From: Candidatus Dadabacteria bacterium
GTDB lineage: Bacteria; Desulfobacterota_D; UBA1144; Nemesobacterales; UBA2774
Reading direction: 5' to 3'
NCBI GenBank assembly: GCA_020849425.1
Contig: JADLGH010000024.1
Span: 1 to 33,097 of the forward strand
DNA: 33,097 nucleotides
Shown here: positions 19,440 through 25,994 of the stretch, piece by piece
Layout: the number at the start of each line of letters is the position of its first letter
Position numbering within the stretch: position 1 is the stretch's first letter
Notes under the pieces: generated by a model
What the model was told of the DNA's origin: nothing
Database searches by the model: none
Seen by the model: only the letters and a program-made list of their open reading frames with translations
Program-made: the position numbers and the translations under genes

Positions 19440-21851
19440 CTATATTGTACGTAATTCGGCACCCAGAGCCAATCGAAGTTTTTTAAGCGCCTTGTCCTGA
19501 ATTCTATTGATTTCCTCTTCCGTAAGCGTCTTGTCGGACGCCCTCAGGTGAAGCGAAACGGCGACGCTCTTCTTCCCTTCCTGCACGGCGCCGCCGGTGA
19601 ACACGTCGAATATCCGGGCGTCCTCTATGAGCCCGGAGCCCATCGACCTTATCTCGTCGATTATGCTCCCTGCGGAAACGCCCTCGTCCACGACGAGCGC
19701 GATGTCCCGCCTTACGGACGGGAATTTCGGAAGCGGCCTGAATTCGCCCTTCTTCCCCGCCGTGAGGCGTGCGGCGTCGTCGAGGTCTATCTCGGCGACG
19801 TACACCCTCTTCGTAAGCCCGAACCTCTCTCTTAACCCGGGGTGAATCTCGCCGGCATAGCCGACGACCTCGCCGTCCATGACTATCTCCGCCGACTTCC
19901 CGGGATGGAGGAATTCGATTCCGGGCGCCGCCCTGAACGTGACGCAATCCCGCGCGTGGAGCGCGCCGAGCGCCTTTTCGAGCACCGCCTTTAAATCGAA
20001 GAAATCGAATTCCTCCCTGTCCCAGAGCTCCGGCTGTTTCCTTCCGGTTGCGGCCGCAGCCAGCTTGTTGGTCTCTTTCGGGAGCTTATCTCCCGACGAG
20101 GGTATGTAGATCTTCCCCGTCTCGAATATCTTTACGTCATTTTCCTGTCTGCTGAGGTTAAGTAGAACATTTTTCACGAGCCCGGCGGTGAGGCTCGTCC
20201 TCATGACGGCCCCGTCCTTGCTTATCGGGTTCAGTATCGGGAGCGCCCTCTCCGGGCTGAAGAGCCCGAGAAGCTCCTCGTCCTCGAAGCTGTAATTTAT
20301 CGCTTCGTAGAAACCGTTCGCCGTGAATACTTCCTTGAATTTCGACTGTACCGTCCTTACGCCGCCCGGGAGCTCCGTCTTCATGGCGACGGCCGGGAGG
20401 GTGACGGGCACGTTGTTATAGCCGTAAAGCCTGGCCGTTTCTTCCACGATGTCTATCTCGCGCGTAAGGTCCACCCTGTACGTCGGCACTCTAAAAGTAA
20501 GAACCCCGTTATCGGGCGACAGGAGCTCGAGCCCGAGCCTCTTCTGTATGGATATTATTTCTTCTTCGCTTATGTCGGTGCCGAGTATGGCGTTTATGCG
20601 CGAAGCCGTGACGCTCACGACCGCGGGCTCTATCTTCACCGGATACTCGTCTATCCTCCCCGCGGCTACCTCGCCCCCGGCGAGCCCGGCGATGAGGGCC
20701 GCCGCCCTGTCGAGCGCCTTTACGACGCCCTCGGGATCGACGCCCCTTTCGAACCTGTAGGACGATTCCGATTTGAGCCCGGTTTTCCTGGACGTTTTTC
20801 TCACGGTGTCGGGGCTGAAGTAGGCGCTTTCGAGGAGTATGCTCGTCGTCCCCCCGGTGACCTCGGTGTAGGCCCCGCCCATGACGCCCGCGAGCGCGAC
20901 GGGCCTTTCGCCGTCGCATATGAGAAGGTCGTCGGCGGAGAGCTTCCTTTCGGCGCCGTCGAGGGTCGTGATCGTCTCGCCGTCTTCGGCCTGCCTCACG
21001 ACTATCTTCTTCCCCCGGACGAGGTCGTAGTCGAACGCATGGAGCGGCTGCCCGAGCTCAAGCAGGACGTAGTTGGTGACATCGACGACGTTATTAATAG
21101 ACCTTATCCCCGACGATTCGAGCCGCGTCTTCATCCACTCGGGTGACGGGCCTATCTTTACGCCGCTTATCACGCGGCAGGTGTACCTGGGGCAGCCCCC
21201 GGGCGACTTTATCTCGACGGATATATAATCTCCGACAGGCACGCCCGACTCCTTTACGGACGTGTCGGGATACCCTGCCGCGCCGGAGAGCACGGCGGCT
21301 GCCTCCCTGGCCGTCCCGACCACGCTAAGGCAGTCGGGACGGTTGGGGGTTATACCTATTTCAAGTAGGACGTCGTTAATGCCCAGCTCGTCTATGAGCC
21401 GCGTCCCCGGGACCGCGCCGGGCGGAAGAATCATAATGCCGTCCGATTCCGTTCCCAGCCCGAGCTCGTTCTCGGCGCATAGCATGCCTTCGGAGACCTG
21501 CCCCCTTATCTTCGCTTTTTTGATGGTGATGCCCTCGGGGAATTTCGGCCCCGGCGGGAGGACCGTTCCGGTCCTCGCCAGCGCGACCTTGTCGCCCGTT
21601 TTCATATTGCTCGCCCCGCAGACGATCGGATACTCGTTCTCGCCGTCCGAAACCCTGCAGAGGGAGAGCTTGTCGGCGTCCGGATGTCCGCCCATGTCGA
21701 GTATCTCGGCGACGACCACGCTTTCGAGGGCTTTGCCCGCGTATTCAATCGATTCCACCTCGAGCCCGGACATGGTGAGCCTGTCCGCGAGCTCCTCCGG
21801 AGAGACGGAGAAATCGACATATTCCTTAAGCCAGTTTAGGGATATTATCAT
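19440..21851 (-). CDS. pheT: Phenylalanyl-tRNA synthetase beta subunit
   Basis: PheT is the large subunit of the alpha2-beta2 enzyme that charges tRNA-Phe. The 803-aa protein has the full bacterial domain order. It begins with ISLNWLKEYVDF, followed by the OB-fold tRNA-binding EMAP-like domain (about 40-150, with VVAEILDMGGHPDADKLSLCRV and GMLCAENELGL), the B3/B4 editing domain, the B5 domain (around 405-475) and the catalytic-like core with RDIALVVDEGVS. It closes with the C-terminal anticodon-binding FDX-ACB domain. The ATG start fits the family; its Shine-Dalgarno is weak. pheS, usually immediately upstream, is absent here: the 252 bp upstream hold only the katA terminator and possible promoter sequence. 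First gene of a four-gene operon. Confidence 0.96.
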   Translation of the reverse strand: MIISLNWLKEYVDFSVSPEELADRLTMSGLEVESIEYAGKALESVVVAEILDMGGHPDADKLSLCRVSDGENEYPIVCGASNMKTGDKVALARTGTVLPPGPKFPEGITIKKAKIRGQVSEGMLCAENELGLGTESDGIMILPPGAVPGTRLIDELGINDVLLEIGITPNRPDCLSVVGTAREAAAVLSGAAGYPDTSVKESGVPVGDYISVEIKSPGGCPRYTCRVISGVKIGPSPEWMKTRLESSGIRSINNVVDVTNYVLLELGQPLHAFDYDLVRGKKIVVRQAEDGETITTLDGAERKLSADDLLICDGERPVALAGVMGGAYTEVTGGTTSILLESAYFSPDTVRKTSRKTGLKSESSYRFERGVDPEGVVKALDRAAALIAGLAGGEVAAGRIDEYPVKIEPAVVSVTASRINAILGTDISEEEIISIQKRLGLELLSPDNGVLTFRVPTYRVDLTREIDIVEETARLYGYNNVPVTLPAVAMKTELPGGVRTVQSKFKEVFTANGFYEAINYSFEDEELLGLFSPERALPILNPISKDGAVMRTSLTAGLVKNVLLNLSRQENDVKIFETGKIYIPSSGDKLPKETNKLAAAATGRKQPELWDREEFDFFDLKAVLEKALGALHARDCVTFRAAPGIEFLHPGKSAEIVMDGEVVGYAGEIHPGLRERFGLTKRVYVAEIDLDDAARLTAGKKGEFRPLPKFPSVRRDIALVVDEGVSAGSIIDEIRSMGSGLIEDARIFDVFTGGAVQEGKKSVAVSLHLRASDKTLTEEEINRIQDKALKKLRLALGAELRTI

Positions 21852-22013: not shown

Positions 22014-22060
22014 ACCCAAAAAAGAACGGCGGCGATCCTCGGTTCGAGGGATTGCCGCCG
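22014..22060 (-). terminator. Rho-independent terminator of katA
   Basis: On the minus strand CGGCGGC (complement of 22054-22060) and GCCGCCG (22027-22033) close a long hairpin with an inner CCTCG/CGAGG stem and a 3-nt loop, interrupted by one bulge. It is followed by TTCTTTTTT. It lies 44 bp after the katA stop. The surrounding 21852-22103 region contains no gene that I can support. Confidence 0.85.
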
Positions 22061-22103
22061 CTTCTCTTTACAAGGAGGAGGATATGGTCAAAGCTTTCGT
22101 TTT

Positions 22104-23685: not shown

Positions 23686-23713
23686 ATGGTACCCTGGAAC
23701 CCATAGTCGTCAA
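23686..23713 (-). promoter_or_regulatory. Candidate katA promoter
   Basis: Minus-strand TTGACG (23713-23708), a 16-bp spacer and TACCAT (23691-23686). The -35 directly abuts the OxyR box, the usual placement for OxyR-activated promoters. The predicted leader to the katA ATG is about 30 nt. Confidence 0.6.
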
Positions 23714-23750
23714 ATATTACTTATCTATCGATCATATAGACAGAGCCTAT
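23714..23750. promoter_or_regulatory. OxyR tetramer operator between katA and oxyR
   Basis: Four quarter-sites at exact 7-bp spacing: ATAT (23714-23717), CTAT (23725-23728), ATAG (23736-23739) and CTAT (23747-23750). Against the established ATAG-N7-CTAT-N7-ATAG-N7-CTAT consensus this is 15 of 16 bases. The element sits directly between the katA and oxyR -35 hexamers, next to a gene for an OxyR with both redox cysteines. Confidence 0.85.
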
Positions 23751-23752
23751 AC

Positions 23753-23781
23753 TTGACTCCTGGCGGCGTGTAGAATATATA
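23753..23781 (+). promoter_or_regulatory. Candidate oxyR promoter
   Basis: TTGACT (23753-23758), a 17-bp spacer and TATATA (23776-23781), 5/6 and 4/6 matches. The -35 starts 2 bp after the OxyR box, so bound OxyR could affect its own transcription. Confidence 0.6.
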
Positions 23782-24821: not shown

Positions 24822-25994
24822 ATGAAAAAAGCATATCTCGACTATAACGCGACGACCCCCGTAGACCCGCGCGTACTAGAAGCCATGATGCCGTACTTTA
24901 AAGACGGCTTCGGGAACCCTTCGAGCATCCACGCCTTCGGGAGCGCCGCGAGGGCCGCGCTCGATGAGGCGCGCGAGAGGGTTGCGGCCCTACTCGGTGC
25001 CGGGGCGAGGGAAATACTCTTCACCTCGGGGGGCAGCGAGGGTAACAACCTCGCCATAAAGGGCGCTGCGTTCGCCGAAGGGGGGCGCGGGGGAAAGCAC
25101 ATGGTAACGACGCGTGTAGAGCACGATTCCACGCTCGAAGCGTTCGTGTTCCTCGAATCACGCGGTTTTACGGTCACGTATCTCGGCGTGGACGGGAACG
25201 GTCTCGTCGATCTCGACGAGCTCCGCGAATCCGTCACCGCCGAGACGAGGCTCGTCTCCGTCATCTACGCGAATAACGAAACCGGGGCCGTCATGCCCGT
25301 GGAACGGATAGCCGGAATCGTGAAGGAAAAGGGAGCGCTCCTTCACGTGGACGCCGTTCAGGCCGCGGGGAAGATCGAAATAGACTTGAAAAGGATCGAG
25401 GCCGACCTCGTCTCGATATCGTCGCACAAGTTCTACGGCCCGAAGGGCGCGGGGGCGCTCTACGTAAGGGACGGGCTCGCAAGGCGCCTGACTCTCGCGC
25501 CGCTCATACACGGCGGCGGGCAGGAGAGGGGGCTAAGGTCGGGGACGGAGAACGTCCCCGCAGTTGCGGGGCTCGGGAAGGCTGCGGAGCTTGCGCTCGG
25601 CGAGCTCGCACCGGACAGGGAAAGGGTGGGGCGGCTCCGGGACGAGCTCCTGGCGCGCATATCGTCCGGCGCTGGCGGGGTCACGCTGAACGGGCAGCCG
25701 GACGGCATGGTCCGGAACACGCTCAACCTGTCGTTCGAGGGCGTTAACGGCGGCTCGCTCGCGATGGCGCTCGACCTCGAAGGCATAGCGGTTTCGACGG
25801 GCTCGGCGTGCTCGGAGGGGAACGTCGATCCCTCGCACGTCCTCCTGGCCATGGGGCTTACGAGGAAGGAGGCGCATTCGTCCGTGAGGTTCAGCCTCGG
25901 CAGGTTCACGACTCGGGAAGAGATAGAGCATGCCGCAGCGGCGGTCGTCTCGGCCGTGAAGAGGATAAGGGGGCTTAAGGGTGCGGGCTCGTAG
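24822..25994 (+). CDS. Cysteine desulfurase (NifS/IscS group)
   Basis: PLP enzyme that moves sulfur from cysteine to an active-site persulfide for Fe-S cluster or thionucleoside synthesis. The 390-aa protein shows YLDYNATTPVDP at the N-terminus, the cofactor-stacking His in RVEHDS (His101), VDAVQAAGKI, the PLP lysine in SISSHKFYGPKGAG (Lys203) and the catalytic cysteine in STGSACSEG (Cys330) on a long flexible loop, as in group I (NifS/IscS) enzymes. No iscU, iscR, nifU or mnmA gene is adjacent, so I leave the symbol blank. It could serve Fe-S assembly or tRNA thiolation. It follows oxyR on the same strand after 86 bp and is convergent with argC, 7 bp between stops. Confidence 0.9.
   Translation: MKKAYLDYNATTPVDPRVLEAMMPYFKDGFGNPSSIHAFGSAARAALDEARERVAALLGAGAREILFTSGGSEGNNLAIKGAAFAEGGRGGKHMVTTRVEHDSTLEAFVFLESRGFTVTYLGVDGNGLVDLDELRESVTAETRLVSVIYANNETGAVMPVERIAGIVKEKGALLHVDAVQAAGKIEIDLKRIEADLVSISSHKFYGPKGAGALYVRDGLARRLTLAPLIHGGGQERGLRSGTENVPAVAGLGKAAELALGELAPDRERVGRLRDELLARISSGAGGVTLNGQPDGMVRNTLNLSFEGVNGGSLAMALDLEGIAVSTGSACSEGNVDPSHVLLAMGLTRKEAHSSVRFSLGRFTTREEIEHAAAAVVSAVKRIRGLKGAGS

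Follow-up and report, generated by a model that had tools for sequence, protein, structure and literature searches.

Between the divergent genes oxyR and katA, the 33,097-nucleotide window (the whole stretch of DNA that was analyzed) carries a predicted peroxide-sensing control site that, judged by comparison of related genomes, is genuine and deeply conserved. The explanation that best joins our results, and that we consider probable, is that this site is a five-box operator on which OxyR would shift with its redox state, that the OxyR regulon would consist of a single locus, and that the operator stayed fixed in related genomes while katA was overwritten by katG. All of the evidence is computational. 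The features of the locus are collected in Table 1.

Table 1. Features of the oxyR-katA locus, in window coordinates
Feature	Position	Strand	Basis
pheT-like gene, syntenic neighbour downstream of kat in relatives	19440..21851	-	synteny
Terminator-like hairpin after katA	22020..22061	-	sequence; surroundings align with 3' region of G001 katG
katA, monofunctional haem catalase, 515 aa	22104..23651	-	Pfam catalase 5e-195; haem-site motifs
katA -10, candidate, TACCAT, 16-bp spacer	23686..23691	-	weak, 4/6
katA -10, alternative candidate, CATACT, 19-bp spacer	23688-23683	-	weak, 4/6
Five-box OxyR operator (predicted), ATAG-N7-ATAT-N7-CTAT-N7-ATAG-N7-CTAT	23703..23750		exact match, 11-bp phase, conservation
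IR3, repressing site, ATAG-N7-ATAT, over katA -35; predicted bound by reduced OxyR	23703..23717		ATAG and ATAT in 15/15
katA -35, TTGACG, within the N7 that separates box 0 from box 1, 0 bp from box	23708..23713	-	-35-like hexamer there in 15/15 genomes
IR2, activation site, ATAT-N7-CTAT; predicted bound by oxidized OxyR	23714..23728		corresponds in position to IR2 in Oliver et al. 2016; conservation
IR1, recognition site, ATAG-N7-CTAT, beside oxyR; predicted to hold OxyR whether reduced or oxidized	23736..23750		15/15 relatives
oxyR promoter, alternative, TATACT-17-TAGAAT, overlapping box 4 (last box)	23748..23776	+	common to G001 (TATACT-17-TACAAT)
oxyR promoter as originally proposed, TTGACT-17-TATATA	23753..23781	+	present; -35 not conserved in G001
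oxyR, LysR-type regulator, 300 aa	23833..24735	+	Pfam HTH_1 and LysR_substrate; structure matches; Cys pair
Cysteine desulfurase gene, syntenic neighbour downstream of oxyR	24822..25994	+	synteny

The original prediction had placed an OxyR box between two -35 hexamers, and we reproduced both its coordinates (23714-23750) and its spacings (0 bp to the katA -35 and 2 bp to the proposed oxyR -35). The sequence of the box, ATATTACTTATCTATCGATCATATAGACAGAGCCTAT, matches 15 of the 16 fixed bases of ATAG-N7-CTAT-N7-ATAG-N7-CTAT. It is the sole site in the window when up to three mismatches to this pattern are allowed (dinucleotide shuffles of the window gave a mean of 0.04 sites) and, at up to two mismatches, the sole site in the 2.02-Mb genome assembly, which is fragmented and 77.6% complete, so that the missing parts could hold other regulon members or a katG. 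A fifth box, the ATAG at 23703, had been missed by the earlier reading. The resulting five-box pattern has 20 fixed bases and one exact match in the window; across 100 shuffles, no match with up to three mismatches was found, and about 5e-7 exact copies per 2 Mb would be expected by chance. In the family genomes searched, exact sites of the ATAT form were found only between oxyR and kat. A chance match, or an unrelated LysR site, is a reading that could draw on nothing beyond the general caution due to short motifs; against a site that is unique in its genome, absent from shuffles, and invariant across genera, its probability is negligible, and conservation rules out the chance match itself.

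Does the same motif mark other genes? The genome-wide search that had been suggested for finding further regulon members returned none. Sites with three mismatches were about as frequent as those found with a reversed control pattern. The sites of this genome with two or three mismatches lie in coding sequence or, at C48:8252, upstream of a gene that resembles NAD-dependent epimerases, and we rejected them as regulon members, attributing them to chance, since their counts are near those of the reversed control. On present evidence, the OxyR regulon would be this one locus.

To place the operator in a wider context, we aligned the window with the corresponding regions of 14 related genomes that have an oxyR orthologue and a divergent catalase locus (13 from the same family and 1 from another family of the order), giving 15 regions. 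The boxes of the relatives also match the canonical pattern at 15 of 16 positions, except in the outermost relative (13/16). The mismatch is identical across the relatives: the first quarter of the box reads ATAT, which is kept in all 15 genomes. The added ATAG is as invariant as ATAT and stands in strict 11-bp phase with it. The 4-mers kept in at least 14 of the 15 genomes, leaving out one-base shifts around box 1, are ATAG, ATAT, CTAT, ATAG, and CTAT at -11, 0, +11, +22, and +33, and the 7-bp spacers between them are much less conserved. Because ATAT is the conserved state and box 0 is invariant, the operator has five boxes, and the four-box site with one error that had first been described gives way to this longer element. 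The accompanying claim that divergent oxyR and catalase genes have one OxyR site in common is supported: the site is kept wherever oxyR and kat adjoin, and the OxyRs carry the redox cysteines.

Could box 0 and ATAT be kept as elements of the catalase promoter instead of as OxyR contacts? Both flank the -35, and neighbouring bases (G, T, and C) are conserved as well. However, a CTAT immediately 3' of the -35 is no requirement of sigma-70 promoters, the letters of the -35 vary (TTGACG, TAGACA, TGGACA, and TTGATT) while the boxes stay, and the phase with the other boxes is exactly 11 bp, all of which makes a pure promoter role improbable.

Read as OxyR contacts, the five boxes form three inverted repeats with centres at 23743 (IR1), 23721 (IR2), and 23710 (IR3), 22 bp apart between IR1 and IR2 and 11 bp apart between IR2 and IR3. 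IR2 and IR3 overlap and would be mutually exclusive, their common half-site being box 1, ATAT. This geometry is that of a three-repeat LysR operator, with two overlapping repeats and spacings of about 22 and 9 to 11 bp. In Escherichia coli oxyR-oxyS, three 15-bp repeats are centred at -66, -44, and -35; the sites in use are IR1 plus IR3 in the absence of inducer and IR1 plus IR2 in its presence, and there, too, the second and third repeats overlap (Oliver et al. 2016, PMC5002191); autorepression of E. coli oxyR is stated in the same paper. The sliding-dimer model of LysR recognition and activation sites (RBS/ABS) expresses the same idea more widely (PMC4730206). ATAT reads the same on both strands and agrees with ATAG as well as with CTAT at three of four positions, and it can thus supply the left half-site of IR2 and, equally, the right half-site of IR3. 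This shared role would explain why ATAT never becomes ATAG.

We propose that one dimer of the OxyR tetramer would stay on the high-affinity IR1 beside oxyR, and that the second dimer would change place with the redox state of the protein. In reduced OxyR, the second dimer would sit on IR3 and cover the katA -35. Upon oxidation, it would shift 11 bp to IR2, freeing the -35 so that katA could be activated. The position of IR1 on the oxyR side would lead to autorepression of oxyR.

The two sides of the operator are not equal. On the catalase side, the -35 adjoins the operator at 0 bp in 15/15 genomes, its own letters varying. On the oxyR side, between 15 and 96 bp separate the operator from the ATG over the 15 genomes, and many relatives, as well as loci of other phyla, have no room for an oxyR promoter beyond the box; where the distance is 15 to 18 bp, a promoter cannot fit there and must overlap the operator. 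In the window, the oxyR promoter first proposed consists of TTGACT at 23753-23758 and TATATA at 23776-23781. Its -35, TTGACT, is absent from the sister species G001 and is therefore not kept even within the genus. The alternative promoter that overlaps the last box has its hexamers at 23748-23753 and 23771-23776. Of the idea that one tetramer site serves two mirror-image promoters, the single shared site stands and the mirror symmetry does not. A canonical four-box tetramer site with one tolerated mismatch and symmetric service to both promoters would account for the 15/16 match and for the two -35 spacings, but it is an unlikely reading of a mismatch that never reverts in 15 genomes, of an equally invariant box 0, and of an oxyR side on which neither the -35 nor the distance to the start codon is kept. 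The unequal sides and the promoter overlapping box 4 fit better with catalase activation plus oxyR repression. Our comparisons thus favour the usual LysR arrangement of target activation and predicted autorepression over a symmetric double activator.

The regulator has the domains of the LysR-type fold (Pfam HTH_1, 2.9e-24; LysR substrate, 2.6e-43), and its nearest solved structures are 4x6g, an OxyR (7.3e-40), followed by 6g1b, a hydrogen peroxide-inducible genes activator. A C-x8-C cysteine pair (HCLGEQINNFC), nine residues apart, is present in 15/15 OxyRs. The best NCBIfam family is PRK11151 OxyR at 175.6 bits versus an equivalog cut-off of 329, which is not a biochemical definition, and HcaR scores nearly as high. 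Since the cut-off is not reached, the name rests on the cysteines, the structural relatives, the operator, and the neighbouring gene. KatA has the catalase domain and the haem-site residues of a monofunctional haem catalase; it does not reach the HPII equivalog cut-off and is not filed as HPII. The full-length relatives of KatA are mostly from Chloroflexota (74-80%). The GC3 of katA is 78.5, like that of oxyR (81.1), and its composition is native.

What lies beside oxyR in the relatives? In 14/14 of them the divergent gene is katG, which encodes a catalase-peroxidase of a different protein family, and among the genomes compared an intact katA under the operator was found only in that of the window. 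The cysteine desulfurase and pheT neighbours are the same across the family of the window wherever the loci could be read that far, except in G009, which has no pheT directly after katG; the same neighbours identify one and the same locus. Many KatGs start with the N terminus of KatA, MxKKKTLTTAHD, which the katGs of G009 and G021 lack. In G010, G012, G014, and G015, katA codon 35 follows directly on the katG stop, in frame, and is followed by internally deleted pieces of katA. Scraps of katA follow katG in G006 and G007, and G011 retains the katA tail only. In G017, from the other family, katA codons 1-66 are followed by katG and then by the katA tail. In G001, the closest relative of the window, katG ends in the last codon and stop of katA, and the 3' region aligns with that of the window.

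The katA relics after katG at four loci (L037, L038, L039, and L040) each form one open reading frame of about 53 to 82 codons, despite differing internal deletions. These frames may be a sign that the deletions are recent or that a small protein has been kept. In G012 and G014, the relics are joined at the same point, where VPER codons are repeated (around KatA residues 49-52 and 449-452). In G006 (L189), oxyR and the whole operator are gone together, and a katG with the first codons of katA still lies beside the cysteine desulfurase gene.

Between genera whose oxyRs show 67-70% identity, the katG DNA reaches 93-94%, and the GC3 of katG is 60-68 in AT-rich hosts with a GC3 of 32-38. The OxyR tree keeps the genera together, and the KatG tree conflicts with it, rejecting a monophyletic genus g2 (p-AU 0.0002) and placing the other-family G017 inside the set. 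These data indicate that katG moved horizontally. In G009 and G021, the katG variants are host-like in composition and show no katA traces; part of the order may have an older native katG, in place of an invasion throughout. Some katG ends (G002, G004, and G017) keep a different 3' flank, which calls for at least two insertion events. The katGs of G004 and G017 (L043 and L156), which belong to different families, have the same 3' flank, TTTCAGTGSTGTTTGKCTGGCCGAAAGGC, presumably that of the donor and a clue to the original source of katG. We discarded a simple single-insertion history for katG (katA codons 35-66 precede katG in G017 and come after it in the family relics) and a plasmid origin (the best plasmid matches are from Rhizobiales at about 80% protein identity, with no close donor). 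The assemblies are drafts.

The neighbours and the control region are conserved, the resident gene has been replaced, and the newcomer is foreign, as in in situ gene displacement. We propose that the operator remained where it was as its target was exchanged, katA being overwritten in place by horizontally spreading katG genes, which would have taken over the promoter of katA and, in several genomes, also the codons at its start or its final codon together with the stop. As for the route, there is an even chance that a katG cassette with short katA ends has passed repeatedly from species to species, entering resident katA genes through homologous recombination and exchanging one enzyme for a nonhomologous isofunctional one; the operator, the promoter, and, in several cases, the start or stop codon would have been kept, with the window as the unconverted locus.

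Is katA in the window the old resident, or was it recently reacquired in place of katG? Reacquisition would agree with katG being the commoner state and with its presence in the sister species, but we found no katG trace at the oxyR-katA locus of the window and no katG in the 77.6% complete assembly, the composition of katA is native, and katA relics occur inside katG loci and never the reverse. In addition, the relics from the C-terminal end in G012 and G014, the only ones to group clearly with the window's KatA, have their best match in its C-terminal region (the N-terminal relics were set aside as evidence of ancestry, being too conserved to tell). The oxyR-operator-katA arrangement is also present in other phyla, and altogether we consider reacquisition rather unlikely. 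The window thus appears to keep intact an older oxyR-operator-katA module that is wider than this family. At 18 oxyR-katA loci from other phyla, the ATAG of IR1 is kept in 16/18 and its CTAT in 18/18; IR1 overlaps the oxyR start in most, and the catalase-side boxes are degenerate.

A divergent OxyR-like gene lies directly upstream in 25 of 80 close relatives of katA, from several phyla (L077, L078, L094, L127, L148, and others), and at many of these loci the last CTAT box extends into the start codon of oxyR. One Chloroflexota genome (L077, 4728-4775) has an exact five-box operator between a katA and a divergent oxyR that is 51.5% identical to that of the window, which suggests transfer of the whole module between phyla.

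Divergent oxyR-catalase promoters, for example in Rhizobiales, and the three-repeat layout are already known. In the open-access literature we found no description of a catalase gene overwritten by a nonhomologous one under the same operator, with inherited codons and relics. The locus would extend the redox-shifted OxyR layout of E. coli to a distant bacterial family and would explain an odd, invariant half-site. The relatives also offer a readable series of states, from intact katA through katG inside katA with relics and katG alone to katG without oxyR and operator, which shows how a foreign gene may acquire ready-made regulation. This series amounts to a natural experiment on what leads bacteria to give up a monofunctional catalase in favour of a catalase-peroxidase.

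Among known systems, E. coli oxyR-oxyS is similar in its divergent oxyR, its three repeats of the ATAG-N7-CTAT type (Toledano 1994, as reported in PMC5002191; Oliver et al. 2016), its overlap of IR2 and IR3, the position of the IR3 region over the target promoter, and its comparable centre spacing (PMC5002191). It differs in that its target is the small RNA oxyS and not a catalase gene; here, moreover, a single box is common to IR2 and IR3, in every case the self-complementary ATAT, and the operator is the sole strong site found in the genome. The bidirectional oxyR-katG promoter of Rhizobiales (Agrobacterium katA/katG) likewise has a divergent oxyR and catalase gene, with the catalase-peroxidase regulated by OxyR and oxyR autoregulated (PMC11975290). 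This comparison is at the level of genes, and the window has a monofunctional catalase. The sliding-dimer operator of BenM at pbenA, with an RBS and two activation sites and a shift on activation (PMC4730206), is comparable in layout, although its switch is a ligand, and the one proposed here is redox. The catalase exchange resembles in situ, or xenologous, gene displacement (Omelchenko et al. 2003, as cited in PMC1274311), in which a horizontally acquired gene replaces the resident in a conserved neighbourhood. It differs in that the newcomer katG is not homologous to katA, carries katA start or end codons, and has left truncated katA relics behind.
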